This document shows, piece after piece, positions 14,627-47,005 of a stretch of DNA of 64,000 nt (the first letter of the stretch is position 1; the number at the start of each line of letters is the position of its first letter). The notes under the pieces were generated by a model. It did not search any database. It had not been told where the DNA came from and saw only the letters and a list, made by a program, of their open reading frames with translations. This DNA is from Janthinobacterium lividum (GTDB taxonomy: Bacteria > Pseudomonadota > Gammaproteobacteria > Burkholderiales > Burkholderiaceae_D). Location of the stretch: the NCBI RefSeq assembly GCF_034424625.1, contig NZ_CP139976.1, positions 2,790,001 to 2,854,000 on the forward strand. The letters are read 5' to 3'. The translations under genes and the position numbers were made by a program.

Positions 14627-14653
14627 CAGGCGACGCTTCAGACGGATTTATTA
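14627..14653 (-). promoter_or_regulatory. Sigma-28-like promoter candidate for flgK
   Basis: On the minus strand TAAT (14653-14650) is followed after exactly 15 bases by GTCGCCTG (14634-14627). The same arrangement, TAA(T/C)-N15-GTCG(C/T)CT, precedes all three flagellin genes, and a weaker version precedes fliD. The spacing equals that of the sigma-28 consensus TAAA-N15-GCCGATAA. The -35 part lies in the last codons of flgJ. Confidence 0.6.
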
Positions 14654-15033
14654 AGCGGCGCTGCAATATTGTCGGTCTTGACAGTGCTTTTGGCTGCCAC
14701 CGGGGTGCTGGCCGCCGGCAGCAGCTGGCGCAGGATGGCGTCGGCGATGCCGAAGGCGCGCTGGCCGGCCATCTTGTCGGCCACCAGGTTGTCGGCCATT
14801 TCCAGCATGTCGTTGTTGATGGGATCCTTGAAGACGCTGTCTTCGCCCGCCATCTCGCGCGTGCCCGAACGCATCTGGCGCAGCATGTGCGAGATGAAGA
14901 ACGCTTCGAACTTGACGGCCGCCTCGGTGGCCTTGGCCGCGTAGCGCGGATCAGCCGGCGTGGCGGCGGCAGGGGAGCGGTCGTCGAGCGCCGAGGGCAG
15001 GGCGCTGCTGCTGTCGTTTACATTCATTTCCAT
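14638..15033 (-). CDS. flgJ: Rod-binding protein FlgJ, N-terminal domain only
   Basis: The 131-residue protein is a single rod-binding domain: KATEAAVKFEAFFISHMLRQ, then MRSGTREMAGEDSVFKDPIN and the helix AFGIADAILRQLL. The C-terminal peptidoglycan hydrolase domain of enteric FlgJ is absent here and is encoded separately at 22104-22856. FlgJ caps the growing rod in the periplasm. It lies after flgI in the flgBCDEFGHIJ series, with the REP-like repeat in the 108-base gap between them. Confidence 0.9.
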   Translation of the reverse strand: MEMNVNDSSSALPSALDDRSPAAATPADPRYAAKATEAAVKFEAFFISHMLRQMRSGTREMAGEDSVFKDPINNDMLEMADNLVADKMAGQRAFGIADAILRQLLPAASTPVAAKSTVKTDNIAAPLNKSV

Positions 15034-15049
15034 TCAGCTTTCAGTGTTC

Positions 15050-15134
15050 GTCAAAATGTTCAGGGCAAGGCGCATTGCCGAAGGCAGTACGAATGTACGA
15101 CGAGGCAGTGCAACGCAGTCCTGGGCTTTTTGAC
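15050..15134. repeat. REP-like imperfect palindrome between flgI and flgJ
   Basis: The ends GTCAAAATGTTCAGG and CCTGGGCTTTTTGAC are inverted repeats matching at 12 of 15 positions. Nested inside are GCGCATTGCC against GGCAGTGCAACGC, and a central GTACGAATGTAC palindrome. The 85-base element fills most of the flgI-flgJ gap and has no coding potential. It looks like one of the dispersed intergenic repeats of Burkholderiales, but no second copy is in this window. As RNA it would form a long hairpin inside the flagellar operon message. Confidence 0.55.
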
Positions 15135-15141
15135 GGGCACG

Positions 15142-16254
15142 TTAGATCACCACCAGTTCGCCTTCGATGGCTCCCGCCTGGTCGAGGGCTTGCAGAATTG
15201 CCATGATGTCATCGGGCGAGGCGCCCAGGCTGTTGACCACGTCGATGATCGATTGCAGCTTGGCGCCGGCAGGCCATTTGAACATATTGCCGTTGCCCTG
15301 GTCGACGGACACTTTGGATTGCGGCGTGACGGTGGTCTGGCCGCGGCCGAACGGTGCCGGCTGGCTGACGGCCGAGCTTTCGGAAATGACGACCTTGAGC
15401 GAGCCATGCGTGACGGCGGCCGCTTTCACGCGCAAGCCTTCCGCGATGACCACGGTGCCCGTGCGCGAATTGAAGACCACCTTCGGCGTATCGACGCCGA
15501 CATCGACGCTCAAGGCTTCGAGCTTGGCCATGAAGGCCACGCGCTGGGTCGGGTTTTCCGGCGCCAGCACTTCCACGCTGGTGGCGTCGCTGGTGGTGGC
15601 GACGGCGCCAAAGCGGCGGTTGACGGCTTCGACGATATTGATGGCCGTCTCGAAATGCGGGTGGCGCAGATTCAGGGTGACGGTCGGCTTGGTCGAGAAA
15701 TCGCTGAGGATTTCGCGCTCGATGTTGCCGCCGTTGGGAATGCGGCCCGAGGTGGGCGTGTTGACGGTGACGGACGAACCGCTCTTGCCGGTGGCGTTCA
15801 AGCCGCCGACGACGACGTTGCCTTGCGCCAGCGCATACGTTTCATTGTCGGCCGCGCGCAATTGCGTCAGCAGCAAGGTGCCGCCGCGCAAGCTTTTCGC
15901 ATCGCCCAAGGACGATACGGTCACGTCGATGGCCTGGCCACGGCGGTATCCCGGAGGAAACACGGCGCTGACCATGACGGTGGCGACGTTCTTGCTTTTC
16001 GATTCGGCGCCGTCCGGCATTTTCACGCCGAACTGCTTGAGCATGTTGACCACGGACTGGCTGGAAAACTTCACCTGCGTGGTGTCGCCGCTGCCGTTCA
16101 GGCCCACGACGAGGCCGTAGCCGACCAGCGGGTTGTCGCGCACGCCCTCGATGCTGACCAGGTTGCGCAGCACTTGCGCGGCGCTGGCAGGCAGGGCAAA
16201 GCCGGACAGCGCAGCGAGCATGGCTGCCAGGGGCAGGGCGGAACGAAATTTCAT
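15142..16254 (-). CDS. flgI: Flagellar P-ring protein FlgI
   Basis: The 370-residue product has a Sec signal peptide ([20 protein letters not shown], cleaved after ASA) and the FlgI core: [20 protein letters not shown], then [20 protein letters not shown] and the C-terminal [20 protein letters not shown]. FlgI monomers assemble with help from the FlgA chaperone into the P ring around the rod in the peptidoglycan layer. It follows flgH by nine bases. Length is normal for the family. Confidence 0.96.
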
Positions 16255-16263
16255 GAGGTCACC

Positions 16264-16941
16264 TTAAAACGGCATCCATGGGCCGACGAAGAAACGCGTC
16301 AGCCAGCCTGGTTTGTTGGCTTCGGCCAGGGTGCCCTGGCCGGAATAGGCGATCTGCGCATTGGCGATGCGCAACGATGACACCTGGTTGTTGGAATCGA
16401 TATCGGCCGCGCGCAGGTAGCCGCGCAGGCGCACGAATTCCTCGCCCTGGTTCAGGGTCAGGGTTTTTTCGCCCTGCACGCGCAGCAAGCCGTTCGGCAG
16501 CACTTCCTGCACGATTACCGTGATGGCGCCGGACAGCGCGTTTTGCTGCGTGCTGGTCGAGTCGCCGGCGAAGTTGCGGTCGGCAGACAGGTCGATGCCC
16601 GTCTTGGGGAAGGTCTTGCCGAGGATATTGGCCGCCTGCACGCCGACGGACGAACCCTTGTTGAACGAGGTGCCCGCCTTCTTGCTCGCCTGCGTGGTTT
16701 CCTGCAGGGCCACCGTGACGACGTCGCCGACGCGGAAAGCGCGGCTGTCGGAAGTCAGGGCCAGGCCCGCATCGGGATTGAAGACGCCGCCGGCCACGCC
16801 GCCGCGCGCAGCGCTGCGCGGCGCCACGGGCAGCGGCGTATCGGAAAAGCTGGGCGCCAGAGGGGCCACCGGCTGGCTGGCGCAACCGGCCGCCAGGATC
16901 AGCAGCAGGGCCGCTCCGGCTTTCAGTGCGGCCTTCATCAA
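16264..16941 (-). CDS. flgH: Flagellar L-ring lipoprotein FlgH
   Basis: The 225-residue protein has a lipoprotein signal ending LILAAGC (lipidated Cys about residue 20). The mature part shows ALTSDSRAFRVGDVVTVALQ, TSFNKGSSVGVQAANILGKT and RNFAGDSTSTQQNALSGAIT, followed by LRVQGEKTLTLNQGEEFVRL, the usual FlgH pattern. It forms the outer-membrane L ring. Its start overlaps the flgG stop by four bases (ATGA), which implies coupled translation. Confidence 0.96.
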   Translation of the reverse strand: MMKAALKAGAALLLILAAGCASQPVAPLAPSFSDTPLPVAPRSAARGGVAGGVFNPDAGLALTSDSRAFRVGDVVTVALQETTQASKKAGTSFNKGSSVGVQAANILGKTFPKTGIDLSADRNFAGDSTSTQQNALSGAITVIVQEVLPNGLLRVQGEKTLTLNQGEEFVRLRGYLRAADIDSNNQVSSLRIANAQIAYSGQGTLAEANKPGWLTRFFVGPWMPF

Positions 16942-17726
16942 CGTGCCGCTTGCGCCAGGTATTGCAGCATATTGTCGGCGGCCGACAGCACCTTGGTATT
17001 CATTTCATAGGTGCGCTGGGCAGCGATCATGTCGACCATCTCTTCGACCACTTGCACGTTCGAGCCTTCCAGCGCGAATTGCTTCAATTTGCCCAGGGCG
17101 CCTTCGCCGGGACGGCCTTCCGTCGGCGTGCCGCTCGATGCCGTTTCCTGGAACAGGTTTTCACCGAGTGCCAGCAGGCCGGTCGGGTTGACGAAGCTGG
17201 AGAGGTTCAGCTGGCCCAGTTCGGTACCGGCGACATTGCCCGGCACGGTGGCCGTGACCATGCCGTTTTCACCGATGGTGATGGCCGTGGCGTTGTTCGG
17301 CACGGTGATCTGCGGCACCAGGGGCAAGCCCTGGGCGTTGACCATCACGCCATTTTCATTGATGCCCAGCTGGCCGGCGCGCGTGTAGGCCGCTTCGCCG
17401 TTCGGGCGCAGCACTTGCAGGAAACCGTTGCCGGTGATGGCGACGTCGAATTCGCGGCTGGTCGTTTGCAGGCTGCCGGTGGTAAACACCTTTTGCGTGC
17501 CGACCATGTGCGTACCGTTACCCAGCTGTACGCCCGATGGCGAGAGGGTGTTGTCGGCGCGTTGCGTGCCCGGCTGCTGCTCGACCTGGTAAAACAGGTC
17601 TTCGAAGACGACGCGGTCGCGCTTGAAGCCGACCGTATTGACGTTGGCCAGGTTATTCGCGATGGCTTGCAGTTTGGCATCTTGTGCCTGCACGCCGGTC
17701 TTGCTGATCCACATTGCTGGATTCAT
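16938..17726 (-). CDS. flgG: Flagellar distal rod protein FlgG
   Basis: The 262-residue protein starts MNPAMWISKTGVQAQDAKLQ and contains AIANNLANVNTVGFKRDRVV, the rod/hook N-terminal motif, and ends with SNVQVVEEMVDMIAAQRTYE and the amphipathic helix MLQYLAQAAR. FlgG forms the distal rod joining the proximal rod to the hook. It follows flgF by 32 bases with an AGGAGC Shine-Dalgarno sequence before the ATG. Length and both terminal helices are standard. Confidence 0.96.
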   Translation of the reverse strand: MNPAMWISKTGVQAQDAKLQAIANNLANVNTVGFKRDRVVFEDLFYQVEQQPGTQRADNTLSPSGVQLGNGTHMVGTQKVFTTGSLQTTSREFDVAITGNGFLQVLRPNGEAAYTRAGQLGINENGVMVNAQGLPLVPQITVPNNATAITIGENGMVTATVPGNVAGTELGQLNLSSFVNPTGLLALGENLFQETASSGTPTEGRPGEGALGKLKQFALEGSNVQVVEEMVDMIAAQRTYEMNTKVLSAADNMLQYLAQAAR

Positions 17727-17758
17727 GTATTGCTCCTAATAATAGATTGGCGTTGGGC

Positions 17759-18487
17759 TTAAGCGCCCAGCAGGCGGTTGCCCGATTCCGTCATGGAATC
17801 GCTGGCCTTGAAAACTTTCATCTGCATCTCGAAACTGCGGTTCAGGCTCATGGTGGCGACCATTTCCTCGACGGCCGAGACGTTGCTGCCTTCCAGATGG
17901 CGGTCGCGGATGCGTACCGTCGGATCAGCTTGCAGGTCTTCGCCGCCGCGCGCCACGATGAGGCCCGCTTCGTTCTTGGTCAGCTCGCCCGCTTCGGCGT
18001 TGACCAGCTTGAGCTTGTCGACCGTCTGCATTTGCGCAGTGCCCGGCACCTGGATGGAAATCGTGCCATCGCCGCCGATCGACAGGCTGGTGTGCTCGGG
18101 AATCGTGATCGGACCGCCTTCGCCCAGCACCGGCCGGCCGTTGATGGTCAGCGCGCCCGTTTCATCGAGGTCCATGGCGCCGGCGCGCGTGTAGGCTTCG
18201 CCGTTTTGCCACTGTACCGCGAGAAAGCCGGGGCCCGTGACTGCCACGTCGAGTTCGCGTCCCGTTTCCTTGATGGCGCCCGTGCGCGTGCCGATGGCGC
18301 TCGACTGCGTCTGCGTCATGTGGCGGTCGTCGTAGCCATAGCCGTTTTGCAACGGCTGGGCAGTGGACACTTCCAGGTTGGCGCGGAAGCCGCCCGTTTC
18401 GATGTTGGCCAGGTTGTTGGCGTGTACCTGCTGTGCCCGCAGGGCACGGTCGGCCCCGCTCATGGCGGTATAAATCAGCGCATCCAT
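17759..18487 (-). CDS. flgF: Flagellar proximal rod protein FlgF
   Basis: The 242-residue protein begins MDALIYTAMSGADRALRAQQ and contains VHANNLANIETGGFRANLEV, then GPGFLAVQWQNGEAYTRAGA, and ends SNVSAVEEMVATMSLNRSFE. This is the FlgF pattern; it builds the proximal rod in the periplasm and is secreted without a cleaved signal. An AGAGC stretch precedes the ATG. It lies between flgE and flgG in the usual order. Confidence 0.95.
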   Translation of the reverse strand: MDALIYTAMSGADRALRAQQVHANNLANIETGGFRANLEVSTAQPLQNGYGYDDRHMTQTQSSAIGTRTGAIKETGRELDVAVTGPGFLAVQWQNGEAYTRAGAMDLDETGALTINGRPVLGEGGPITIPEHTSLSIGGDGTISIQVPGTAQMQTVDKLKLVNAEAGELTKNEAGLIVARGGEDLQADPTVRIRDRHLEGSNVSAVEEMVATMSLNRSFEMQMKVFKASDSMTESGNRLLGA

Positions 18488-18513
18488 TGCTCTTTACCTT
18501 TGCGTATCGTGGA

Positions 18514-19692
18514 TTACAGCGCTTGCATCAGCGATTGCAGCATGGCGTTCTCGGTCGAGATGACCTTCGAGTTGGCCTGGTAGTTACGCTGCGACGTCAT
18601 CAGCCCCACCAGTTCGGAGGTGATGTCGACGTTCGACTGTTCCAGCGAGCTCGTCACCAGTTTGCCGGCCATGCCGACGCCCGGACGGTCATACATGGCG
18701 GTGCCGGAGGTGGTCGAGGCGACCCAGCTGGTATCGTTGACGGCCGTCAATGCGCCTTCATCAGGGAAGGTAGCCAGGGCGATCACGCCGATGCTCTGTT
18801 TTTGGCCGTTCGTGTATTTCGCCACGACGGAGCCGTCATCGGCCAGTTCCACGCCCGTGTAGGTGCCCGAGGCATAGCCGTCGGCGCGGTCGGTCGAGGT
18901 GGTGGCTTCGCCGGCGAACTGGGTGGTGCCCGTGTAGTCGATGACGACCGACAGCGGCGCCGCGCCAGGCGGCGTCGGCAGCACTGGCGTGGCGCCCGTG
19001 CCGGTCACCAGCTTGCCGTTCGTGTCGAAGGTCATGCTCGTCACCGGCGTCACATCGGCGTTGTCGAAGGTGTAGTGCACGTCCACGCCCGTTGCCGTCT
19101 TGACGAAATACTGGCCCAGCGAGTGCTTGGCACCCAGCGAATCGTAGACGATCGAGGACTTGGCGCTGTTGTAGCTCAGTTCGTTGGTCTTGTTGAACGG
19201 CGGCGTTTTCACGGTCCATTCGGACGACATATTGGCGGCATACGCCAGCTTGGTCGAGGCCACGGCGGGAATCTGGCCCGTTGGAATGAGCATGTCGCCC
19301 ATGGTGCCCAAGGTGGTGCTGCCCTTGACGGCGGCATAGCCCTGCACCAGGCGGCCATTCGCATCGATCAGCTTGCCTTCATTGCTGGCCGAAAAGATAC
19401 CGACGCGGCTGTAGGTCATGGTGTTCTGCGCATCGCGCGTGACGAAATAGCCGCGGCCATCGATGGCCGCGTCAAGCGCGCGGCCCGTGTTCAGCACGCC
19501 GCCATTGAGCGACATGCTTTGCGTCAGCGAGCCGATTTCCGTGCCCGTGGCGCGCGAACCGGCGTACATGGCCGAAAAGTTGGCGCGGCTGCTCTTGAAG
19601 CCGTAGGTGCCGGCGTTGGCGATATTGTTACTGGTGCTGTTCAACTGTTGGTTGATGGACTGGATACCGGACAGGGCGATGTCGAAACTCAT
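18514..19692 (-). CDS. flgE: Flagellar hook protein FlgE
   Basis: The 392-residue protein has the hook N terminus MSFDIALSGIQSINQQLNST with SNNIANAGTYGFKSSRANFS, a central FlgE D2-like part (STKLAYAANMSSEWTVKTPP onward), and the C terminus SNVDITSELVGLMTSQRNYQ followed by a terminal helix MLQSLMQAL. It forms the curved hook. The length is close to the primary enteric FlgE (about 400). Scaffold protein FlgD is encoded just upstream. Confidence 0.95.
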   Translation of the reverse strand: MSFDIALSGIQSINQQLNSTSNNIANAGTYGFKSSRANFSAMYAGSRATGTEIGSLTQSMSLNGGVLNTGRALDAAIDGRGYFVTRDAQNTMTYSRVGIFSASNEGKLIDANGRLVQGYAAVKGSTTLGTMGDMLIPTGQIPAVASTKLAYAANMSSEWTVKTPPFNKTNELSYNSAKSSIVYDSLGAKHSLGQYFVKTATGVDVHYTFDNADVTPVTSMTFDTNGKLVTGTGATPVLPTPPGAAPLSVVIDYTGTTQFAGEATTSTDRADGYASGTYTGVELADDGSVVAKYTNGQKQSIGVIALATFPDEGALTAVNDTSWVASTTSGTAMYDRPGVGMAGKLVTSSLEQSNVDITSELVGLMTSQRNYQANSKVISTENAMLQSLMQAL

Positions 19693-19750
19693 GTTGACTT
19701 CCTTTAGTGAAGGACGAGATTAGTGTTCAGGAAACGAAGGGAAGGGCGGA

Positions 19751-20404: not shown

Positions 20405-20407
20405 GGA

Positions 20408-20824: not shown

Positions 20825-20832
20825 GCTGATCC

Positions 20833-22097: not shown

Positions 22098-22103
22098 GGA
22101 AAA

Positions 22104-22856: not shown

Positions 22857-23283
22857 ACGTATCTTCCTCGCCATGCAGCACGCGCTGCATGATGCTGTAC
22901 TGCTCTGTTAATAAATCACTGTTGCGGGCGTTCAGGCGTTTGCATTCAAGCACCATCTGCTCGAGCGCGGCCCAGTCGCGTTCGGCGCTCGTACGCGCGT
23001 CTTCTTGCAACAGCGCAAACAATTGGGCCATGTCGCCTTGCGGGCCCAGCAGGGCCGTGACGAGGCTGACCCGCTGGCGGCGGCGCGCATCGAGCGGTTC
23101 GACGGCGGCGATGACCTGGTCGGCCAGCGCCGTCAGCTGCGCGCTGCGGTGGTGCAGGGTGGCCTGGAATTGCTCTTCCAATAAGGTTTGCAGGGCGGCA
23201 TAGCCGATACTGTCGTCTTTCATGCCTTGCAGCACGCGGCGCACGGCTTCCTGGCGCGTGATGCCCTTGCGCGCTGCGGTCAC
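22843..23283 (-). CDS. flgN: Flagellar export chaperone FlgN, lateral type
   Basis: The 146-residue, mostly helical protein begins at a GTG that overlaps the flgM stop (GTGA). The pattern RRVLQGMKDDSIGYAALQTL followed by LEEQFQ resembles the start of lateral LfgN chaperones, which supports the upstream GTG rather than the internal ATG at 23223. The C-terminal half (ERDWAALEQMVLECKRLNAR) fits the FlgN helical bundle. FlgN is the cytoplasmic chaperone for FlgK and FlgL. The assignment rests on length, helical pattern and position beside flgM. Confidence 0.8.
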   Translation of the reverse strand: MTAARKGITRQEAVRRVLQGMKDDSIGYAALQTLLEEQFQATLHHRSAQLTALADQVIAAVEPLDARRRQRVSLVTALLGPQGDMAQLFALLQEDARTSAERDWAALEQMVLECKRLNARNSDLLTEQYSIMQRVLHGEEDTYAPG

Positions 23284-23570
23284 GATTCACCGCCGTGGAA
23301 ACGCTGGATCAAGCCTGCCAGTTTTGACGGATCGAACGGCAATTCGCCCTTGGCCAGCGCATCGCGCAGCATGGCCACGCGCTCGTGGTCGATCTCGGGC
23401 ATGGCGCGCAGGGCGGCCATGGCCGGTTGCAGCACGGCCGATTGCAATTCCGTCCCGGCCGACGAGCCGCCCATGGCGCCGGCGGCGCCCGCGTTCTCGG
23501 CGATCGCCTCGGCCGGCGCGACGGCGCTGCTGCGCACGGCAGCACCGGTATTGCCGGAGGAGATTTTCAT
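23280..23570 (-). CDS. flgM: Anti-sigma-28 factor FlgM
   Basis: The 96-residue protein starts MKISSGNTGAAVRSSAVAPA after an AAGGG Shine-Dalgarno sequence. The first half is low-complexity, as in unstructured FlgM; the C-terminal half MPEIDHERVAMLRDALAKGE then PFDPSKLAGLIQRF is the sigma-binding helix pair. It should hold FliA until it is exported through the completed hook. Unusually it sits in the same gene run as its sigma factor, between motB and flgN. Confidence 0.88.
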   Translation of the reverse strand: MKISSGNTGAAVRSSAVAPAEAIAENAGAAGAMGGSSAGTELQSAVLQPAMAALRAMPEIDHERVAMLRDALAKGELPFDPSKLAGLIQRFHGGES

Positions 23571-23586: not shown

Positions 23587-24591
23587 TTAATTTGCATGCT
23601 CATCCCGCTCCTTCTTTGCGGGCAGGCCCAGTTTTTCGCGCAGGCGCTGCAAGGTGCCCGCATCCGGTTCACCCACTTGCAGTTCGTCGCCTTGCGGCTT
23701 TTGCCCGGCCATGCCGAACATGGCGGCGATGCTGTCTGCCTGGCCACGCGTCAATATTAACAGTTCGATGCGGCGGTTGATGCCGGCGCTGGCGTTTTTC
23801 ACGTCCAGCGGCGCGCGGTCGGCCATGCCCACCACTTGCAGCACGCTGTCCGGACTCATGCTGCCGATCAGCAATTGCGCTCGCGCCGACATGGCGCGGT
23901 TGGCCGACAGGGTCCAGTTCGAATAGCCTTCATAGCCGTTATTGGCGTATTGCAAGGAATCCGTGTGGCCGACGATCAGCATCTGGTTTTCCATTTGCGC
24001 AAACACGGGACCCATCTGGCGCAGCAGCTTGCGGAAGCGGTCGGTCGGCACGGCGCTGCCGCGCACGAACATGCCTTGCTTGTCCGTATCGTGCAGCATG
24101 ACGCGCAAGCCGTATGGCGTGATCACGGATTGCAGGTTGCTCTTGAGTCCCGCTTCGTCGCTGAGCTTGTCGAGCGCGCGCGACAATGCCATCAAGTCTT
24201 CCGGCGACTGGTAGCTGACCTTGGTCTGGTTTTGCGGCGCGGAGCCGGCTTTGCCGTCCTGCATCTGCTTGCCTTCCGTGCGCGTGTCGCCCGAGCCCTT
24301 GCGGGGCATGGGGAAGCGCTCGATCAGGCTGCCGCGCGGACCGCCACTCTGTTCCGGCATGACGCCCTGGCCTTCGCCCTGGCGGCTGCTGGCCGACGCA
24401 TCCATCATGATTTCCTTCATTGCCTGCTGCTCGCGCGCGGCCATCAGCCACAGCACGAGGAACAGCGACAGCAGGGCCAGGCAAAAGTCGGCGAATGCTA
24501 CTTTCCAGGCGCCGCCATGGCCATCGTCGTCATGCTTGCGGCCAGCACGCTTGATGATGGCCTGTTCATGTTTCTCATGCGGCTTTAGCAC
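23587..24591 (-). CDS. motB: Flagellar motor stator protein MotB, LafU type
   Basis: The 334-residue protein has one N-terminal membrane helix preceded by a basic stretch (IIKRAGRKHDDDGHGGAWKV) and the proton-binding Asp in AFADFCLALLSLFLVLWLM. The OmpA-like peptidoglycan-binding domain has QMLIVGHTDSLQYANNGYEG, SNWTLSANRAMSARAQLL and AGINRRIELLIL. I place the start at the GTG at 24591 after GGGAGG, overlapping the motA end by 17 bases; an in-frame ATG at 24636 would increase the overlap. Position after motA and fliA matches lafU in lateral systems. Confidence 0.92.
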   Translation of the reverse strand: MLKPHEKHEQAIIKRAGRKHDDDGHGGAWKVAFADFCLALLSLFLVLWLMAAREQQAMKEIMMDASASSRQGEGQGVMPEQSGGPRGSLIERFPMPRKGSGDTRTEGKQMQDGKAGSAPQNQTKVSYQSPEDLMALSRALDKLSDEAGLKSNLQSVITPYGLRVMLHDTDKQGMFVRGSAVPTDRFRKLLRQMGPVFAQMENQMLIVGHTDSLQYANNGYEGYSNWTLSANRAMSARAQLLIGSMSPDSVLQVVGMADRAPLDVKNASAGINRRIELLILTRGQADSIAAMFGMAGQKPQGDELQVGEPDAGTLQRLREKLGLPAKKERDEHAN

Positions 24592-25489
24592 GGCGGCCTC
24601 CCCGGCCTTGGCCCTGCTCTTGTTCTGCGCCGCCATCTTCCAGCGCATTGATCCAGCTTTCCAGCTGGGCGAAGCTCGGCTTGATGTTCAGCTGCACCAG
24701 GCGGCGGCCCGCATCGATCGCCAGCAGGGGCGGCTTGCCCGCCACGTGCGTGACCAGCACGACCTTCACGCACTCCATGGTCGAGCCTTCCTCGCCCACC
24801 AATTGCTTCATCATGTTGCACATCGGATCGAGCACGCCGTAGCAAAAGAAGATGCCGATGAAGGTACCGACCATGGCGGCACCCACTTTTTCCGAAATTT
24901 CCGCCGCATCGGCGCCGTCGGCCACGGAATTCATGGCCATCACGATGCCCAGAACGGCAGCCAGGATACCGAAACCTGGCATGGCTTCGGCGATCTTGTG
25001 CAGGGACTTCGACGGTTGCAGCAACTCGTCGTGGATGGCTTCCAGTTCCTGCTCCAGCACGCCTTCGAGCTCATGCGCGTTGATCTTGCCCATCGCCATC
25101 AAACGGAAGTTGTCGACGATGAAGGCCAGCAGCTTCGGCTCTTCCAGCACCAGCGGATAGCGCTGGAACAGGGCGCTTTCGCGCGGTGCCTCGACGTGGG
25201 CATCGAGCGCCTTAAGGCCGCCGGCGGCCGTTTGCAGCAGTTCATACATCAGCAGCAGCAACTGGCGCTGGAATTCCGAGCCTTGCTTCTTGTGCGTGAC
25301 GATCTTGCGCATCTGGTGCAGCATTTCACCGAGTACATGCTTGGGATTGCCCAGCACCAGGGCGCCAACGGCGGCGCCGATGATGATGATCAACTCGACC
25401 GGTTGCCAGATCGCGTGGACGGTGCCGCCCATCAGGGCGAAGCCTCCGAATACACACCCCATCACGATTAAGATACCGATAATTACCAT
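24575..25489 (-). CDS. motA: Flagellar motor stator protein MotA, LafT type
   Basis: The 304-residue protein has four membrane segments, beginning MVIIGILIVMGCVFGGFALM and including PVELIIIIGAAVGALVLGNP, GFGILAAVLGIVMAMNSVAD and AMVGTFIGIFFCYGVLDPMC. The cytoplasmic loop carries the charged residues that act on FliG. This is the proton-type MotA. It lies 56 bases after fliA, and the next gene is motB, the lafS-lafT-lafU order. Confidence 0.94.
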   Translation of the reverse strand: MVIIGILIVMGCVFGGFALMGGTVHAIWQPVELIIIIGAAVGALVLGNPKHVLGEMLHQMRKIVTHKKQGSEFQRQLLLLMYELLQTAAGGLKALDAHVEAPRESALFQRYPLVLEEPKLLAFIVDNFRLMAMGKINAHELEGVLEQELEAIHDELLQPSKSLHKIAEAMPGFGILAAVLGIVMAMNSVADGADAAEISEKVGAAMVGTFIGIFFCYGVLDPMCNMMKQLVGEEGSTMECVKVVLVTHVAGKPPLLAIDAGRRLVQLNIKPSFAQLESWINALEDGGAEQEQGQGRGGRRAKAA

Positions 25490-25545: not shown

Positions 25546-26289
25546 TTATGCGTCTTGCAGCATGGCTTTCATCTTGCCCAGCGCCGTTTTGTTGAGCTGG
25601 CAGACACGGGCGTCGCTCAGGTCCAGCACGGCGGCAATTTCTTTATAGCTCAGTTCGAATTCGTAATACATCTGCACCACGCGCTGTTCCCGTTCGTCCA
25701 GCGTGCGCAGCGCCTGTTCCAGGCTGCGCCGCACCATCAATTGCTCTTCCGGGCTCGGTGCGCTGTCGGCTTGCCCCAGGCTTTCCTGCAGCACTTCGTC
25801 GAAACTGGCGATCAGCTCGGCGTTTTCCGCCAATTGATATTCCTGGAAGGCTTCCGGCGTCAGTTTCAGGGCCGCCATGATTTCCGCTTCCAGCGGCTCG
25901 CGCCCCAGGCGCCGGGTCAGGGCGCGCACGCTGTCGCGCAGGCGGTGGCTTTCCTGGCGCACGGCGCGCGGGCGCCAGTCCTGGCGCCGCAGTTCATCGA
26001 GGATGGCACCACGGATGCGCAGGCTGGCATAGCTGCCGAAAGACTGGTCCGGCACGCCGTAGCGGCGCAGGGCTTCCAGCAGGCCCATCAGGCCAATCTG
26101 TTCCATGTCGTCGCGGTCGATGGCGCCCGACACCTGCGAATTGAGCTGGCGCACGATGCGTTTCACCAAAGGGGAGTACGCTACCAGATGTTGTTGCTCT
26201 TCAGCAACGCTGAGCACGGCCGCGCAAGCGCTGGCGGCCGCATATTCGCCGGCGCCATACGCTTCCTGGTATTGCTCTACATAGGCCAA
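25546..26289 (-). CDS. fliA: RNA polymerase sigma-28 factor FliA, LafS-like
   Basis: The protein of about 247 residues has all sigma-28 regions: AYSPLVKRIVRQLNSQVSGA and DRDDMEQIGLMGLLEALRRY (region 2), FGSYASLRIRGAILDELRRQ then DWRPRAVR, and the region 4 helix ELSYKEIAAVLDLSDARVCQ. It should direct transcription of late genes (flagellins, flgK, fliD). I favour the TTG at 26287-26289, five bases after GGGAG; the frame can also start at a GTG four codons upstream. Its own sites may be the TAAT-N15-GTCG(C/T)CT boxes described here. Confidence 0.92.
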   Translation of the reverse strand: MAYVEQYQEAYGAGEYAAASACAAVLSVAEEQQHLVAYSPLVKRIVRQLNSQVSGAIDRDDMEQIGLMGLLEALRRYGVPDQSFGSYASLRIRGAILDELRRQDWRPRAVRQESHRLRDSVRALTRRLGREPLEAEIMAALKLTPEAFQEYQLAENAELIASFDEVLQESLGQADSAPSPEEQLMVRRSLEQALRTLDEREQRVVQMYYEFELSYKEIAAVLDLSDARVCQLNKTALGKMKAMLQDA

Positions 26290-26322
26290 GGGATCTCCCA
26301 CTAGGTCGGCTGGCGTGTTGGC

Positions 26323-28690: not shown

Positions 28691-30103
28691 TTAGGATTTA
28701 TCGTTACTAAACATGGCATCGAACATGTCCGAATTCCGGGTCATTTGCTCCTGCAATACTTGCAGGCGGGAATATTGGTCCAGGAAACGGGTGTAAGCAG
28801 TGTTGTACTGGTTGGTCAGGCGCTCGGCGCTCTTGGCCAGGCTTTTCTGCAACTTGTCCGTCGCTGCCATGCGCTGGGTGATCTGGCCTTTGGTGACATT
28901 GCTCCACTGTCCCAGCACCTTGTCCAGGCCGCCGAGCACGCCGGCTGGGGCCGACAGGCTGTTATTGCCGAACAGTTTGTCCAGGCCGCCAGGATTGTCC
29001 GCCAGTTTGGCCGTCAGCTTGGCCGTATTCAGGCTGATCGTGCCGTCGCGCTGGGCCGTAATGCCATACGCTACCAGCGATACGCCATCGACGTTCAGGC
29101 GCAGGGCATCGCCCATGCTGGTGCGCAGGGCGTTCAGGCCGGAGTCGTGGGCAAAGATGCCGGCAGCGATATTTTTTTCCGGATTGCCGGGGCTGGCCAG
29201 GCCATCCATTACGCTTTTCAGCTTGTTGTAGGCATCGACGAAGGCTTGCACATTGGCAATGGTGCCGGCGCTGTCGGTGCCGACGGTCACGGTAACCGGG
29301 CTCTCGCCTGCCGTCATGGCCTTGGTGAACGTCATTTTCACGTCAGGCACGTTGGTGAAGGTATTCGATGCCTGGGTGATCTTGGTGCCGGAACCCTGCG
29401 CGCCCAGCCAGACGATGGCGTCCTTGGGCGCCGCGATGGCTTTTATGTCGCTCTGCAGCGCTGACTTCAGGCCCGCATCCGTCACGCTGTTGGTATCGAT
29501 CGAGACGGCATTGGCCACGCCGGTGAGATTCGACGTCAGCACCAGTTGCGCCTGGTTGCCGATATTGATGACGGAAGCGGTGACACGCGCATTATTCTTG
29601 CTGTTGCCATTGATGGCGGCGGCGATTTCCTGCGGCGTCAGGTAGGCGTCGCCATCCTTGTTGGCGGCGGCCAGGTCGATGTCGAAGGCGTTGTCGGCGG
29701 TGACGGCAGCCAGCGGATCGCCGAGGCGGATGGTCATGTTGCCGCCGTTGGCAGGCGTGGTGCTGCTCAAGCCGCCATACGAGGTCTGGCTGGCCGTGGC
29801 CAGTTGTTCGACAAAGAACGCGTAGCTGCCAGGCGCCGCCTTGATGCCGGCCGTGCCCGTGCCATACGCGGTATTGCTGAAGGTGGCGGACTGGCTCAGC
29901 ACCGATTTGCTGGACGTCATGGTCGTCATCGCCAGCTGGAATGCCGAGATGGCCGATTTCAGGTTGCCCAGCGCGCTGCTGGTGTTGTTGGCCAGCGTGG
30001 TCTGATTCGCCAGGGCTGCCTTTTGCGCCGCCACCGATTTGGTAGCCAATTGTTCTGCTGTGACGATCGGATCGTATCGTGGTGCGGTAATTACGTTTGC
30101 CAT
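28691..30103 (-). CDS. fliD: Filament cap protein FliD (HAP2), LafB-like
   Basis: The 470-residue protein starts MANVITAPRYDPIVTAEQLA, with an N-terminal helix QKAALANQTTLANNTSSALG and the C-terminal helices MAATDKLQKSLAKSAERLTN and RFLDQYSRLQVLQEQMTRNS typical of FliD. The last residues MFDAMFSNDKS end the family pattern. It caps the filament and lets flagellin polymerise. A sigma-28-like site precedes it, so it may begin the late transcript fliD-fliS-fliT-fliK-fliL-fliA-motAB-flgMN. Confidence 0.94.
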   Translation of the reverse strand: MANVITAPRYDPIVTAEQLATKSVAAQKAALANQTTLANNTSSALGNLKSAISAFQLAMTTMTSSKSVLSQSATFSNTAYGTGTAGIKAAPGSYAFFVEQLATASQTSYGGLSSTTPANGGNMTIRLGDPLAAVTADNAFDIDLAAANKDGDAYLTPQEIAAAINGNSKNNARVTASVINIGNQAQLVLTSNLTGVANAVSIDTNSVTDAGLKSALQSDIKAIAAPKDAIVWLGAQGSGTKITQASNTFTNVPDVKMTFTKAMTAGESPVTVTVGTDSAGTIANVQAFVDAYNKLKSVMDGLASPGNPEKNIAAGIFAHDSGLNALRTSMGDALRLNVDGVSLVAYGITAQRDGTISLNTAKLTAKLADNPGGLDKLFGNNSLSAPAGVLGGLDKVLGQWSNVTKGQITQRMAATDKLQKSLAKSAERLTNQYNTAYTRFLDQYSRLQVLQEQMTRNSDMFDAMFSNDKS

Positions 30104-30136
30104 GCCAGACTCCTGAATAAAGGGATATACCGGTAC

Positions 30137-30163
30137 AAGGCGACCCCCATTCCCGTTTCGTGA
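30137..30163 (-). promoter_or_regulatory. Sigma-28-like promoter candidate for fliD
   Basis: On the minus strand GTCGCCTT (30144-30137) lies 15 bases after TCAC (30163-30160). The -10 half matches the boxes before flgK and the flagellins, including the following GTAC, but the -35 half is weaker than TAAT. It is about 34 bases upstream of the fliD ATG. Confidence 0.45.
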
Positions 30164-38613: not shown

Positions 38614-38624
38614 CGCCGCGCGCC

Positions 38625-42638: not shown

Positions 42639-42653
42639 GACGGTGACATGAAA

Positions 42654-42686
42654 AGAAAAACGGCGCTTCGGGCGCCGTTTTTTTTG
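42654..42686. terminator. Bidirectional terminator after flhA
   Basis: The stem ACGGCGC-TTCG-GGCGCCGT is flanked by an A-rich run on the left and eight T on the right, between the convergent ends of flhA and the hypothetical gene on the minus strand. Confidence 0.85.
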
Positions 42687-42705
42687 CTGTATCAATTCTG
42701 TTGCG

Positions 42706-43812
42706 TCAATCCTGTTCGTCGATGGGCGGCAGCAGGTCGTGCTCCTGGCCGTCGGCCAGCAGCAGTACGGTGCCGCTTTGCGCCGTCTCTTCGTCGTCGC
42801 CATAGTCGTAACCGAGCGGCGCCGCCACTTCCTTCGAGACGGCGATGGTTTCCTCTTCGGCCGCCGCCGCGGCTTCGCTGGCAGCGGGCGCATCGGGATT
42901 GGCCGCCGCTTCCGCTTCCGGCTGCGTCAGCAGCAGCGCCACTTCGGCCATGGCGCGGAACAGTGCCAGCGACAGCGAGGCGGCGCCCGCCTGCATCGGG
43001 TAGTTGCCGTGCACGCGCTGGGCATGCAGTTGGCGGTTGAGGCGGCAGCGCACCACGCGCAGGCCCGCGCGCCGCACGGCGTCGGCGATCTCGGGCAGGG
43101 CCAGGCGCAAATGGCGCAATGCGGCTTCCTCGTCGGCGGCCAGTTCCAGCAGCACGCCGTCGCCGGCCGGCTCCATCTGGATCACGACCCGGCCGATGCC
43201 GATGATGATCAGTTCGACGCGCAGCGCCACCTTGCCGCGCCGCCTGGGCGTGGCATCTTCGTCTTCGTCGCTGGCCAGCACGCGCAGCAGCAGGCGCTGG
43301 CCGCCCCAGCCATATACGGCGAAGCGCCATGCTTCGCTGTCGACGCTCAAGGGCGGGCGGGCGCCTTCGCGCAGCAGGGCCGGTTGCTGCTCTGCCATGA
43401 ACAGGTTGCCCGGCACGTGCTGGCCGCGCGCCTGCTCCTGCAGGGCCGCATATTGCTCGCCATACGTCTTGACCATCACGCGCCACGAGGCGGCCAGCTG
43501 CGCCGCGTCGGGCGGTTGCCAGACCAGCTGGCGCGTGAAGAACAGTTGATTGACCTGCATGGCGCTGCTGTCGCGCGGCATGGCGCCGCCCGTGCCATCG
43601 GCATTCGGCTTGATGAGGGACGCCAGGCTGTCTTGCCCCTTCTGTTGCAGCTGGGCGGGCAGGGTGCCGGCGTCGGGCGCGGGCGCCATGTAGGGGCCGA
43701 TGGGCACCAGCGGCTGGACCACGCCCGGCACCATCGGCGTCGCGGGGCTGACGTCGAAGCGCTGGGTAATCAGGGGCACCGGGTTGCCCGATGAGATGCG
43801 GTCTATCGCCAT
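42706..43812 (-). CDS. Unknown flagellar-locus protein with FliK-like C-terminal pattern
   Basis: The 368-residue protein has no family I can name with certainty. The first 95 residues are Pro/Gln-rich, followed by QLFFTRQLVWQPPDAAQLAA and SWRVMVKTYGEQYAALQEQA. Residues about 195-270 (KVALRVELIIIGIGRVVIQM, LLELAADEEAALRHLRLALP, AVRRAGLRVVRCRLN) follow the FliK C-terminal pattern: a beta hairpin around an LGRV-type turn, a helix, then a short strand. The tail is acidic and Ala-rich. It lies between flhA and the flagellin genes, downstream of fliC3 by about 57 bases, so it is probably a flagellar accessory or a second hook-length-type protein. That role is inference. Confidence 0.6.
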   Translation of the reverse strand: MAIDRISSGNPVPLITQRFDVSPATPMVPGVVQPLVPIGPYMAPAPDAGTLPAQLQQKGQDSLASLIKPNADGTGGAMPRDSSAMQVNQLFFTRQLVWQPPDAAQLAASWRVMVKTYGEQYAALQEQARGQHVPGNLFMAEQQPALLREGARPPLSVDSEAWRFAVYGWGGQRLLLRVLASDEDEDATPRRRGKVALRVELIIIGIGRVVIQMEPAGDGVLLELAADEEAALRHLRLALPEIADAVRRAGLRVVRCRLNRQLHAQRVHGNYPMQAGAASLSLALFRAMAEVALLLTQPEAEAAANPDAPAASEAAAAAEEETIAVSKEVAAPLGYDYGDDEETAQSGTVLLLADGQEHDLLPPIDEQD

Positions 43813-43869
43813 ACCATTGCTTCCTGCTGATACATATTCATCCGATCCGCCATCGCGCCCTGCCAGTCA

Positions 43870-44745
43870 CTATTGTAGTAAAGAAAGAATCAACTTGCTC
43901 ATGCTCTGGCTTTGCTTGAGCATGGCCGTGCTCGCTTGCAGCAGCATTTGGGCCGAGGCCATGTTGGCGCTTTCGGCCGCGTAATCGACATCCATGATGC
44001 GGCCGATGGCGGCCCTGGTATTGGTGATCATGTTCGACAGGTTGTTGTAGACGTGTCCGAGCCGGTTCGCGGTGGCGCCCAGCGCCGAGCGCACGCTGCC
44101 GACCTTGTCGACGGCCGCCACCAGCATGTCGATCATGCCGTTGGCGCTGCTGTTGCTGGTAAATTCGCTGCCGGCTGTGGCGCCTGGCGCGAAATTGACG
44201 GAGATCGCCTGCAGGGCGGCATCCAGGCCGGCCATGTCGCCCGCCACGTTGAACTGCATGGTCTCGCTGCCGGTGGCGCCGATCTGGAATGTCATGGCTT
44301 GCGACAGGGTGCCCTTGCCGGCGCTGCCGTTGCCCAGCAATAAAGTGCCGCCGTAGCGGGTGTTTGTCATCACGTTGTACAGCTCGGCGCCCAGCGCATC
44401 GTATTCGCCCTGCATGGCCTCGCGGTCCTTCTGGTTCGACGAGGCGTCCGCCGCCTGGGTGGCCAGGTCCTTCATGCGCACCAGCATGCTGGTGACTTCG
44501 CCAAACGCGCCTTCGGCCGTCTGCAGCAGGGAAGTACTGTTTTGCGTGTTGCGCATGGCCACTGCCATGCCGCTGGTCTGGGCGCTCAGCCTGGTGGCGA
44601 TCTGCAAGCCTGCCGCATCGTCCATGGCCGAGTTGATGCGAAAACCGGTGGAGAGGCGCGTCATCGACGTCGACAGCATTTGCTGGGCCCAGCCCATGGC
44701 CCGCTGGGCTGACAGTGCGGCAGTATTGGTATGAATGCTCAGCAC
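43870..44745 (-). CDS. fliC: Flagellin, divergent paralogue (third copy)
   Basis: The 291-residue flagellin starts at a GTG (MLSIHTNTAALSAQRAMGWA) with GGAG seven bases upstream. The N-terminal D0/D1 (LSTGFRINSAMDDAAGLQIA) and C-terminal (ASAQMLLQASTAMLKQSQSM, SLLQ end) parts match the other two flagellins, but it differs throughout, for example QQMLSTSMTRLSTGF and a distinct central region. It is short, as for many lateral flagellins, and lacks large outer domains. It has its own sigma-28-like site. Confidence 0.92.
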   Translation of the reverse strand: MLSIHTNTAALSAQRAMGWAQQMLSTSMTRLSTGFRINSAMDDAAGLQIATRLSAQTSGMAVAMRNTQNSTSLLQTAEGAFGEVTSMLVRMKDLATQAADASSNQKDREAMQGEYDALGAELYNVMTNTRYGGTLLLGNGSAGKGTLSQAMTFQIGATGSETMQFNVAGDMAGLDAALQAISVNFAPGATAGSEFTSNSSANGMIDMLVAAVDKVGSVRSALGATANRLGHVYNNLSNMITNTRAAIGRIMDVDYAAESANMASAQMLLQASTAMLKQSQSMSKLILSLLQ

Positions 44746-44787
44746 GCGGCGGCTCCAGTAGGCGATTGTTCGGTGTTCTACCTTGTA

Positions 44788-44814
44788 TAGGCGACTATGC
44801 CGGCAACATCGTTA
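44788..44814 (-). promoter_or_regulatory. Sigma-28-like promoter candidate for the third flagellin gene
   Basis: On the minus strand TAAC (44814-44811) is followed after 15 bases by GTCGCCTA (44795-44788), the same arrangement as before flgK and the other flagellins. It lies about 43 bases upstream of the GTG start. Confidence 0.6.
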
Positions 44815-44865
44815 AACGTGATGGCAATTTAGTTCAATATGCGGGAAATGCCAGACACGGCAGGC

Positions 44866-44893
44866 GAAAAAAAAGCCAGACCGGAGTCTGGCT
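44866..44893 (-). terminator. Terminator after flagellin copy 2
   Basis: Stem AGCCAGAC-CGGA-GTCTGGCT followed on the minus strand by eight T. An almost identical terminator follows flagellin copy 1 (45982-46008). Confidence 0.88.
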
Positions 44894-44926
44894 TCGAGAG
44901 ACTGGCCGCGAGCGGCCAAGTCACTA

Positions 44927-45799
44927 TTATTGCAGCAGGGACATGACCATCGAGGACATGCTGTTGCTTTGTTTCAGCATCGCGGTGCCAGCTTGCAGCA
45001 GCATTTGCGACGACGTCATGTTCGAGCTTTCGGTAGCGAAGTCGGTGTCCATGATGCGGCCGGTAGCGGCTTTGGTGTTGGTGGCGATGTTCGACAAGTT
45101 GGTGTTGACGTGGTCCAGACGGTTGGCCGTCGCGCCCAGTGCCGAACGCACGGTGCTGACGCTGTCGATGGCGGTAGCCAGCAGGCCGATGGTGGCATTG
45201 GCGGAAGCGGTCAGTTCCGTGGAAGTCGTCGTGCCTGCCGACGAGAAGTTCGTGCTCAAGCCGCTCAGGGCGGTATTCAGCGCGCTCAGATTGGCGGAGA
45301 CGTCAAAGCTCATTTTTTCGGTCGAGCTGGCGCCGATCTGGAACGTCATCGAAGCCGACAGCGTGCCATTGCCGGCTGCGCCGTTGCCCAGCAGCTTGGT
45401 GCCGCCGAACGTGGTGTTGGTCATGACGTTGTACAGTTCCTGGCCCAATGCATTGTATTCAGCTTGCATGGCGGTCTTGTCGTTGGCGGTCGACGAGGCA
45501 TCGGCTGCCTGGGTTGCCAAGTCTTTCATGCGTACCAGCATGTTGGTCACTTCGGCGAACGCGCCTTCAGCCGTTTGCAGCAGCGAGGTGCTGTTTTGCG
45601 TGTTGTTCATTGCAACGGTCATGCCGCTGGTTTGTGCTTTCAGGCGGGTTGCGATCTGCAGGCCGGCAGCATCGTCCATTGCCGAGTTGATGCGGAAGCC
45701 GGTGCTCAGGCGCGTCATCGAAGTCGACAGTTTGGATTGGGTATTCGTGATCGAATTTTGTGCCGACAGGGAGGCAGCGTTGGTGTGAAGGCTCAGCAT
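44927..45799 (-). CDS. fliC: Flagellin, tandem copy 2
   Basis: The 290-residue flagellin begins MLSLHTNAASLSAQNSITNT with the D0/D1 sequence LSTSMTRLSTGFRINSAMDD, and ends SSQMLLQAGTAMLKQSNSMS then MVMSLLQ. It lacks the large D2/D3 outer domains of enteric flagellin. It is identical to copy 1 for roughly the first 137 and last 65 residues; residues about 137-225 differ (for example STNFSSAGTTTSTELTASAN here). It polymerises into the filament after FliS-assisted export. Ser/Thr-rich central residues are possible O-glycosylation sites for the neighbouring island. Confidence 0.95.
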   Translation of the reverse strand: MLSLHTNAASLSAQNSITNTQSKLSTSMTRLSTGFRINSAMDDAAGLQIATRLKAQTSGMTVAMNNTQNSTSLLQTAEGAFAEVTNMLVRMKDLATQAADASSTANDKTAMQAEYNALGQELYNVMTNTTFGGTKLLGNGAAGNGTLSASMTFQIGASSTEKMSFDVSANLSALNTALSGLSTNFSSAGTTTSTELTASANATIGLLATAIDSVSTVRSALGATANRLDHVNTNLSNIATNTKAATGRIMDTDFATESSNMTSSQMLLQAGTAMLKQSNSMSSMVMSLLQ

Positions 45800-45860
45800 G
45801 GTGTCATTCCTAATTGGGTGGTTGCGGTGAGGAGCGACTTTTAGCTGCTCCTATCAGTAC

Positions 45861-45887
45861 AAGACGACCGTGCCGCCACCTTAATTA
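45861..45887 (-). promoter_or_regulatory. Sigma-28-like promoter candidate for flagellin copy 2
   Basis: On the minus strand TAAT (45887-45884), 15 bases, then GTCGTCTT (45868-45861), followed by GTACTGATAGG. It lies about 62 bases upstream of the ATG and matches the copy 1 promoter. Confidence 0.65.
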
Positions 45888-45981
45888 AATGCTTTAAGGA
45901 AATTTTTTGAAATAAATGCCATTTCTTGCTCCGCCGGCCTGTTTGGCCCGTGTTGCGGCATGCTTGCGCCAGCTGCGCACG

Positions 45982-46008
45982 AAAAAAAAGCCAGACCGGA
46001 GTCTGGCT
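45982..46008 (-). terminator. Terminator after flagellin copy 1
   Basis: Stem AGCCAGAC-CGGA-GTCTGGCT with eight T following on the minus strand, a copy of the terminator at 44866-44893. Confidence 0.88.
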
Positions 46009-46041
46009 TCGAGAGACTGGCCGCCAGCGGCCAAGTCACTA

Positions 46042-46917
46042 TTATTGCAGCAGGGACATGACCATCGAGGACATGCTGTTGCTTTGTTTCAGCATCGCGG
46101 TGCCAGCTTGCAGCAGCATTTGCGACGACGTCATGTTCGAGCTTTCGGTAGCGAAGTCGGTGTCCATGATGCGGCCGGTAGCGGCTTTGGTGTTGGTGGC
46201 GATGTTCGACAAGTTGGTGTTGACGTGGTCCAGACGGTTAGCCGTCGCGCCCAGTGCCGAACGCACGGTGCTGACGCTGTCGATGGCGGCGGCCAGCTTG
46301 CCGATGGTGGCGTTGGCGGTGGCGGTCAGTTCCGTGGCGCCGGTCGATGCGGCAGCGGCGAAGTTGGTGCTCAGCCCCGTCAGAGCTGCGTTCAGCGAGG
46401 TCAGGTTGCCGGAAACGTCGAAGCTCATTTTTTCGGTCGAGCTGGCGCCGATCTGGAACGTCATCGATGCCGACAGCGTGCCAGCCGTAGCGGCCGAACC
46501 GTCGCCCAGCAGCTTGGTGCCGCCGAACGTGGTGTTGGTCATGACGTTGTACAGTTCCTGGCCCAATGCATTGTATTCAGCTTGCATGGCGGTCTTGTCG
46601 TTGGCGGTCGACGAGGCATCGGCTGCCTGGGTTGCCAAGTCTTTCATGCGTACCAGCATGTTGGTCACTTCGGCGAACGCGCCTTCAGCCGTTTGCAGCA
46701 GCGAGGTGCTGTTTTGCGTGTTGTTCATCGCAACGGTCATGCCGCTGGTTTGTGCTTTCAGGCGGGTTGCGATTTGCAGGCCGGCAGCATCGTCCATTGC
46801 CGAGTTGATGCGGAAGCCGGTGCTCAGGCGCGTCATCGAAGTCGACAGTTTGGATTGGGTATTCGTGATCGAATTTTGTGCCGACAGGGAGGCAGCGTTG
46901 GTGTGAAGGCTCAGCAT
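46042..46917 (-). CDS. fliC: Flagellin, tandem copy 1
   Basis: The 291-residue flagellin has the same ends as copy 2 (MLSLHTNAASLSAQNSITNT; AMLKQSNSMSSMVMSLLQ) but a different centre, for example LLGDGSAATAGTLSASMTFQ and STNFAAAASTGATELTATAN. It is one residue longer than copy 2. An AGGA Shine-Dalgarno sequence lies eight bases before the ATG. It is nearest to the glycosylation island and transcribed from its own promoter candidate. Confidence 0.95.
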   Translation of the reverse strand: MLSLHTNAASLSAQNSITNTQSKLSTSMTRLSTGFRINSAMDDAAGLQIATRLKAQTSGMTVAMNNTQNSTSLLQTAEGAFAEVTNMLVRMKDLATQAADASSTANDKTAMQAEYNALGQELYNVMTNTTFGGTKLLGDGSAATAGTLSASMTFQIGASSTEKMSFDVSGNLTSLNAALTGLSTNFAAAASTGATELTATANATIGKLAAAIDSVSTVRSALGATANRLDHVNTNLSNIATNTKAATGRIMDTDFATESSNMTSSQMLLQAGTAMLKQSNSMSSMVMSLLQ

Positions 46918-46978
46918 GGTGTCATTCCTAATTGGGTGGTTGCGGTGAGGAGCGACTTTTAGCTGCTCCTATCAGTAC

Positions 46979-47005
46979 AAGACGACCGGGCCGCGGAACT
47001 TATTA
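46979..47005 (-). promoter_or_regulatory. Sigma-28-like promoter candidate for flagellin copy 1
   Basis: On the minus strand TAAT (47005-47002), 15 bases, then GTCGTCTT (46986-46979). The spacer sequence differs from copy 2, whereas both boxes and the following GTACTGATAGGAGC are kept. Confidence 0.65.

Follow-up and report, generated by a model that had tools for sequence, protein, structure and literature searches.

Locus and predicted promoters

The window analysed here is a stretch of 64,000 nucleotides of the Janthinobacterium lividum genome (C1:2790001-2854000; the source genome consists of two contigs, 6.76 Mb). A lateral-type flagellar cluster spans window positions 11221-46917, and five predicted promoters, all on the minus strand, lie before its flgK, its fliD and its three flagellin genes. 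Here we surveyed these promoters, their counterparts in related bacteria and the sigma factor which very probably reads them, and compared them with the promoters of the primary flagellum of the same genome.

The genes concerned are all encoded on the minus strand. The lateral flgK lies at 13195..14556 (TIGR02492, 293.8 bits, above cut-off) and fliD, for the lateral filament cap, at 28691..30103 (FliD families, all under their cut-offs). The flagellin genes, each with PF00669 and PF00700 above cut-off, occupy 43870..44745 (gene 1, with a GTG start), 44927..45799 (gene 2) and 46042..46917 (gene 3). The proposed reader of the five promoters is a lateral FliA, a LafS-type sigma-28 factor (25546..26301; start codon uncertain), and the anti-sigma-28 protein FlgM of the lateral set is encoded at 23280..23570 (PF04316 at 28.2 bits, cut-off 25).

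The predicted flgK promoter (14628..14653) reads TAAT-N15-GTCGCCT, then GTACAAGG, and that of flagellin gene 1 (44789..44814) reads TAAC-N15-GTCGCCT, then ATACAAGG. Flagellin genes 2 (45862..45887) and 3 (46980..47005) have TAAT-N15-GTCGTCT, then TGTAC. A first-pass annotation had described this motif with equal spacing before flgK and the three fliC genes, and four strict minus-strand matches confirm it, with the intervals then given one base too long; the weaker form which it saw before fliD is also there, as TCAC-N15-GTCGCCTTGTAC at 30133..30163, with a -10 beginning GTCGCCT.

TAAY-N15-GTCGYCT has four strict matches in the window against 0.04 expected from shuffles, an expectation that overstates the significance because the pattern was written from sites already seen. 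The window was therefore scanned on both strands with a matrix of 72 distinct promoters, all from loci outside Janthinobacterium (genus left out). The five sites are the top five of the 64 kb (35.9, 34.6, 26.8, 13.7 and 12.9 bits), with the fliD site in third place; the sixth-best place scores 7.0 bits and lies within a predicted coding frame. Across 120 kb surrounding the primary flagellar genes the maximum of the lateral matrix was 5.8.

The first-pass annotation had also proposed a genome-wide search for TAAN-N15-GTCGYCT. This loose form gave 12 matches, 4 of them in the cluster, and its backwards control 24; elsewhere in the genome the motif is at background level. The longer form with up to two mismatches gave 16 matches (three in the cluster) and 38 in its control. 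A wider regulon outside the cluster was considered and rejected, the 13 further long-form matches being mostly inside predicted coding frames and their count under that of the control; one of them, at C1:1854411, has two mismatches and lies about 130 bases ahead of a coding frame. The sole perfect match of the source genome to TTAAY-N15-GTCGYCTTG outside the cluster (C1:1445896-1445924) is inside a long coding frame and is probably due to chance.

Sigma-54 and sigma-70 promoters were tried as alternatives and set aside. The sigma-54 pattern TGGCAC-N5-TTGC with one mismatch was at background (10 matches, 10.3 expected), with no match in the immediate upstream regions of flagellin genes, flgK or fliD, and no sigma-70 site was found at the flagellins, in 44600-47200.

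Conservation in relatives

The flagellin survey set comprised the window and 80 relative loci found by lateral FlhB, 81 sources in all; the closest named relatives by this protein are Janthinobacterium, with 99 to 91% identity in the first 19 loci. Flagellin-like frames numbered 111, in 66 of the 81 sources, and 104 upstream regions from 64 sources were retained. Seven frames were left out, six as not alignable from the N-terminus and one for too little upstream DNA; four of the seven have 1 to 26 upstream bases, two are without a site and one repeats the site of its neighbour.

TAAY and GYCGY stand 15 bases apart in 100 pairs over the 104 regions, the next best spacing (42 bases) giving 11, and the sigma-28-like spacing noticed at first pass is thereby borne out in the relatives. 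The motif precedes 102 of the 104 retained lateral flagellins, as 98 to 99 distinct promoters depending on the length compared; the 98 come from 62 sources. Their consensus is ATTTAATGA-N13-GTCG(T/C)CTTGTACT. Information reaches 2.25 bits per position in the boxes and falls to 0.03 to 0.16 in mid-spacer, and the conserved stretch extends beyond the -10 into GTAC and further. The motif stands, at genes unrelated to one another, mostly 55-120 bases ahead of the start codon. Relatives differ in how many lateral flagellin genes they have in tandem, and the Massilia aquatica locus (L095) has six frames, each with its own promoter of this class.

Among 145 genomes drawn from the family, 26 have a lateral FliA at 67% identity or above; in a class-wide search at E 1e-70, 2 of 369 genomes were positive, the source genome being one of them. 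TAAY-N15-GTCGC is found upstream of the lateral flgK in all 26, and TCA(C/T/G)-N15-GTCGC upstream of the lateral fliD in 16.

The promoter class also follows the lateral sigma gene across whole genomes. A search of 56 genomes for TTAAY-N15-GTCGYCTTG without mismatch was positive in 25 of the 26 that have lateral FliA, with 48 matches in all, and in 2 of the 30 that lack it, with a single match in each; the corresponding numbers for the backwards control were 1 and 4 matches. This contrast holds within genera: in g11 and g18 no match occurs in the four members that lack lateral FliA, and in g23 one match was found in one of six. Among the matches listed, 44 of the 48 are at most 200 bases from the start of a flagellin or a lateral flgK, the other four being G000:C1:1445896 (the coding-frame match given above), G106:C1:2827084, G120:C6:123 and G138:C72:5624.

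Lateral and primary promoter classes

The primary set of the source genome (FliA at C1:5270016-5270687, flagellin, fliD, flgK and flgM) is located near C1:5.23-5.28 Mb. The presence of two FliA, as supposed earlier, is thus confirmed, and the two are 36% identical. A genus-left-out primary matrix finds five sites over threshold near the primary genes, before fliC, fliD, flgM and flgK and at 5223004. The same matrix scores all five window sites under threshold, and its two window sites over threshold are not near any flagellar gene.

Both boxes differ between the classes. All of the 133 distinct lateral sites have T just ahead of the -35 box, and at its fourth base 129 have T or C and the other 4 have G, a count biased by the search patterns, since both matrices were built solely from sites fitting them; where searches left the fourth base free, neither TAAA nor TCAA turned up upstream of lateral flagellin, flgK or fliD genes. 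The -35 of primary sites is TMAA(G/C)TTT, mostly preceded by C. At -10 the lateral box is GTCGYCTTGTAC and the primary one NCCG(T/A)TA, and positions 5 to 8 of the lateral box are nearly free of A (0, 0, 1 and 11 of the 133 sites). The first-pass annotation had placed the deviation in the -10 half only; the -10 does differ from that of the primary class, but the -35 deviates too (TTTAAY against TMAA(G/C)TTT).

The primary fliC promoters were surveyed in 60 loci, 30 from lateral-bearing and 30 from lateral-lacking genomes, with a pattern that demanded TMAA. A proximal site, T(A/C)AA(C/G)TTT-N11-(A/C/T)CCG(T/A)(T/A)A, occurs about 120 bases ahead of the start (51 sites in the 60 loci). A distal candidate promoter, T(A/C)AAG(T/A)T-N12-G(T/C)CG followed by T/A/C and with position 8 mostly A, was found in 44 loci, both with and without lateral FliA, usually about 86 bases further up (83 to 103 in some). 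The source genome has such tandem sigma-28-like sites about 86 bases apart before its primary fliC (G000:C1:5232196-5232308, L016:2196-2308).

The distal site contains GTCG(T/C)(C/T)T in 20 of the 60 loci, and GTCGYCT had to be given up as the sole hallmark of the lateral class. The form occurs in 16 of 30 lateral-bearing loci and, less often, in 4 of 30 lateral-lacking ones (Fisher p 0.002, confounded by kinship), and because it occurs in those four it cannot need lateral FliA there. Lateral FliA might read the distal site, but kinship confounds the excess, the -35 is of primary type, and the lateral matrix skips the site in the source genome.

By the difference of the two matrices, lateral sites score +29.7 or above and primary proximal sites -44.7 or below with no overlap, a margin which is optimistic because training sites are included; the fair version of the separation is the genus-left-out scan. 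In the -10 the distal sites fall between the two classes, 61% of them leaning lateral, and in the -35 they lean primary in 44 of 44. The -35 plus the last -10 bases is a cleaner mark of the lateral class than GTCGYCT, because the distal primary sites are intermediate in the -10 and never in the -35.

Lateral FliA

The lateral FliA scores 222.2 bits against TIGR02479 (FliA/WhiG; curated cut-off 189.6). Its best family is the lateral equivalog NF009091 (PRK12427), at 272 bits, under the cut-off of 339. In a tree 29 lateral and 26 primary FliA rows split at 100/100, the lateral side including the E. coli Flag-2 and V. campbellii lateral FliA; its bootstrap is not fully settled, and two gammaproteobacterial outgroup rows are long branches that meet. 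Because the tree splits lateral from primary FliA, the lateral sigma is placed by sequence in the LafS lineage and did not arise as a recent copy of the primary FliA.

A comparison of 26 lateral and 25 primary FliA (E. coli numbering), which the first-pass annotation had suggested for region 2.4, did reveal fixed changes in the lateral protein: I79 (primary M), R85, R89 (primary L/M), S97 (primary M) and H98 (primary R). I79, R89 and H98 are present in 26 of 26 lateral FliA and in none of the family's primary FliA, and are common to the lateral FliA of E. coli Flag-2, V. campbellii and genome G419. In region 4.2, A219, N225 and K226 are found in all 26. The residues equivalent to E. coli FliA D81, R84 and R91, which we take to be -10 contact residues, are identical in all compared FliA.

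Comparison with known systems

The consensus reported for E. coli sigma-28 (FliA) is TAAAGTTT-N11-GCCGATAA (PMC2859248). The lateral sites resemble sigma-28 promoters in their TAA-type -35, the 15 bases from TAAx to the -10, C3 and G4 in the -10, and the late flagellar genes downstream. Unlike E. coli sigma-28 promoters, they have TTTAAY without a following GTTT at -35, the window sites being TAAT, TAAC and TCAC in place of TAAA, and the lateral -10 has T2, C6, T7 and T8 instead of C, T, A and A, so that GTCGYCTT agrees with the E. coli box only at G1, C3 and G4.

E. coli Flag-2 and Vibrio lateral systems have the FliA clade in common with the window cluster (100/100), and E. coli Flag-2 has a similar neighbourhood of fliDS, fliA-motA-lafU, flgMN and flgKL. 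The promoter type is shared in part. With spacings of 14 to 16 bases allowed and 300 shuffles per region, the lateral matrix was significant in five of eight late-gene regions elsewhere (p 0.007 or lower), namely flgK and lafA of E. coli Flag-2, the latter at a spacing of 14 bases, fliD of V. campbellii, whose site has AAAT at -35 and lies about 218 bases upstream, and fliD and flgK of G419. It was not significant in the control regions before E. coli Flag-2 fliA and motA, and the primary matrix stayed above p 0.05 in all ten regions (lowest 0.073). Unlike the sites of the window, those of E. coli Flag-2 read TTAAG and G(T/C)CG(T/C)TTTTA at a spacing of 14 or 15. The sequences used include two records named as plasmids. 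The 834-kb E. coli record with the Flag-2 genes (L164; CP054241.1, pBone7_3) carries gpt, crl, phoE and proB and is probably a piece of chromosome, and the 2.06-Mb V. campbellii record (L165; NZ_CP050465.1) is probably chromosome II.

Lateral flagella in Janthinobacterium are on record (PMC8929069; PMC5773237), and two fliA genes with lateral flagellin homologs are reported in Janthinobacterium and Duganella (PMC5773237). The same source notes two fliA in Burkholderia dolosa and suggests regulators common to both flagella; the word promoter is absent from its main text, and likewise from that of PMC6993521. For Plesiomonas, clusters of flgMN, flgKL and fliDS-fliA-lafTU are discussed together with a FliAL mutant, and no promoter was found binding FliA or FliAL (PMC11242183). 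The literature searched showed no lateral sigma-28 consensus, and one may be in print outside it, for instance in older subscription papers.

Interpretation

The five sites are, in our assessment, very likely late-gene promoters of the lateral cluster which its own LafS-type FliA reads by a distinct two-box code. They represent a promoter class that is real and conserved and is associated with a known kind of sigma factor, and the first-pass interpretation is supported in part. From the sequence comparisons we infer recognition by the lateral FliA, the extents of the operons and insulation from the primary sigma. The lateral FliA would retain the general layout of sigma-28 (a spacer of 15 bases, C3 and G4 in the -10, equivalents of D81, R84 and R91) and would use TTTAAY and GTCGYCTTGTAC, the primary FliA reading TMAA(G/C)TTT and NCCG(T/A)TA; both boxes would serve to insulate the lateral regulon from the primary sigma. 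The late regulon of the source genome would comprise flgKL, fliDST and the three flagellin genes. Lateral FlgM and lateral FliA would form a second sigma/anti-sigma pair, in which FlgM would hold the sigma factor until hook completion, as is established for sigma-28 systems generally.

Several observations weigh against this reading or its extension. Two of the left-out flagellin-like frames (L066 and L087, without alignment from the N-terminus) have no site, the motif is absent at Paludibacterium L126, and Acidovorax L124 has TAAG-N15-ACCGCCTT as judged by eye. The lateral fliD is without a site in 10 of the 26 genomes; several of these genes start within a few tens of bases of the preceding gene. 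The distal primary fliC site of the source genome, TCAA-N15-GTCGTCTA, is half lateral-like, and the primary site at 5223004, the weakest of its five, lies away from late flagellar genes. The lateral matrix was not significant in three of the eight regions elsewhere, E. coli Flag-2 fliD and flgM and V. campbellii lafA; by eye only, E. coli flgM (ACCGCTTTACC) and V. campbellii lafA (TAAT-N15-ACCGCCTC) resemble the lateral class. The region 4.2 changes are partly absent in V. campbellii, which keeps H225 and has P219, and the lateral clade differs at many further residues, which makes the link from residue to base one of correlation. The lafA promoter of V. parahaemolyticus is reported to be bound by RpoN (sigma-54) in a gel shift (PMC9817140).

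The sites could instead be loose ordinary sigma-28 promoters also read by the primary FliA, with one late code and the two flagella separated by other means. The spacing and the CG core are the same in both classes, and the four lateral-lacking loci whose distal fliC site has GTCG(T/C)(C/T)T indicate that a primary sigma may accept GTCGTCTA. Those distal sites, however, retain the primary -35 (in 44 of 44, within a pattern that required TMAA), the source-genome region with the distal site is not significant by the lateral matrix (p 0.65), the five window sites fall under the threshold of the primary-trained matrix, and TTAAY-N15-GTCGYCTTG is nearly missing from genomes with primary FliA only, so we regard this possibility as unlikely.

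It seems to us very improbable that the motif is instead bound by an activator or repressor of the lateral late genes, with transcripts starting elsewhere. The conservation past the -10 into GTAC and beyond is longer than a sigma box needs, and the RpoN report implies that another sigma can serve a lateral flagellin. Against these stand the two boxes at a rigid sigma-28-like 15-base spacing with a freely drifting spacer, their position at unrelated genes, mostly 55-120 bases ahead of the start codon, the lack of sigma-70 sites at the flagellins with sigma-54 at background, and the way in which the motif tracks the lateral sigma gene. Likeness by descent only, with duplicated flagellin genes carrying their leaders along, would suit flagellin genes 2 and 3, whose upstream regions hardly differ past the motif; it is scarcely credible for the class as a whole, where spacers vary and boxes stay constant, flgK (26 of 26 genomes) and fliD carry the motif as well, and 98 distinct flagellin promoters come from 62 sources. 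Chance is ruled out by the fixed spacing in relatives, the genus-left-out ranking and the whole-genome association. The motif is very probably the promoter of the LafS-type sigma-28.

A broader reading is offered tentatively, and we hold it to be possible but somewhat less likely than its negation: LafS/Flag-2 may be an old sigma-28 branch in beta- and gammaproteobacteria with the code TTAA(Y/G)-N15-GYCGYYTT. Changes in region 4.2 and at FliA 89 and 98 would determine this code, and cells with dual flagella would have two insulated regulons. On this reading the lateral holoenzyme, with a -10 box nearly free of A after the CG core, would melt the DNA at an element that differs from the ATAA found in other sigma-28 promoters. 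The RpoN binding reported at V. parahaemolyticus lafA makes the broader reading less likely.

Other features of the cluster

The genes covered by family searches are flgK, flgL (found as a flagellin-like protein), flgJ, flgN, flgM, motB, motA, fliA, fliL, fliS, fliD, fliJ, fliI, fliN, flhB, flhA and the three flagellins, of which flgJ, fliL, fliD and motB score under their NCBIfam cut-offs; the remaining hook, rod and export genes were named by sequence appearance. The stator genes motB (LafU-like, 23587-24648, under family cut-offs) and motA (24575-25489, above cut-off), both on the minus strand, lie downstream of fliA (23587..25489) and have no motif of their own in the lateral matrix scan.

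Two frames have no Pfam match. The one at 11221-12267 is directly after flgL, a place taken in E. coli Flag-2 by the gene of a hook-associated protein, and the other, at 42706-43812, is between flhA and the flagellins and has 66 matching frames in the 81 sources. Identical terminator-like hairpins at 44872-44895 and 45987-46010 lie downstream of flagellin genes 2 and 3, and these genes look like single-gene units because of the hairpin after each (the hairpin scan covered genes 2 and 3). With leaders that are nearly identical downstream of the motif, genes 2 and 3 look like a recent duplication which included promoter and terminator.

Significance

Bacteria with two flagella must build each at different times, and the literature searched says little on how their late programmes are separated at the level of DNA. 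In the source genome the two flagella are probably switched separately via distinct start signals, and separation of two sigma-28 programmes is plausible. If this is true, paired sigma-28 factors with separable promoter codes would explain the separation of the late programmes by DNA recognition. It would also allow the lateral late genes of the family to be called by a simple rule, and would provide a natural series of paired sigma and promoter variants for finding the FliA residues that choose the -10 and -35 bases.

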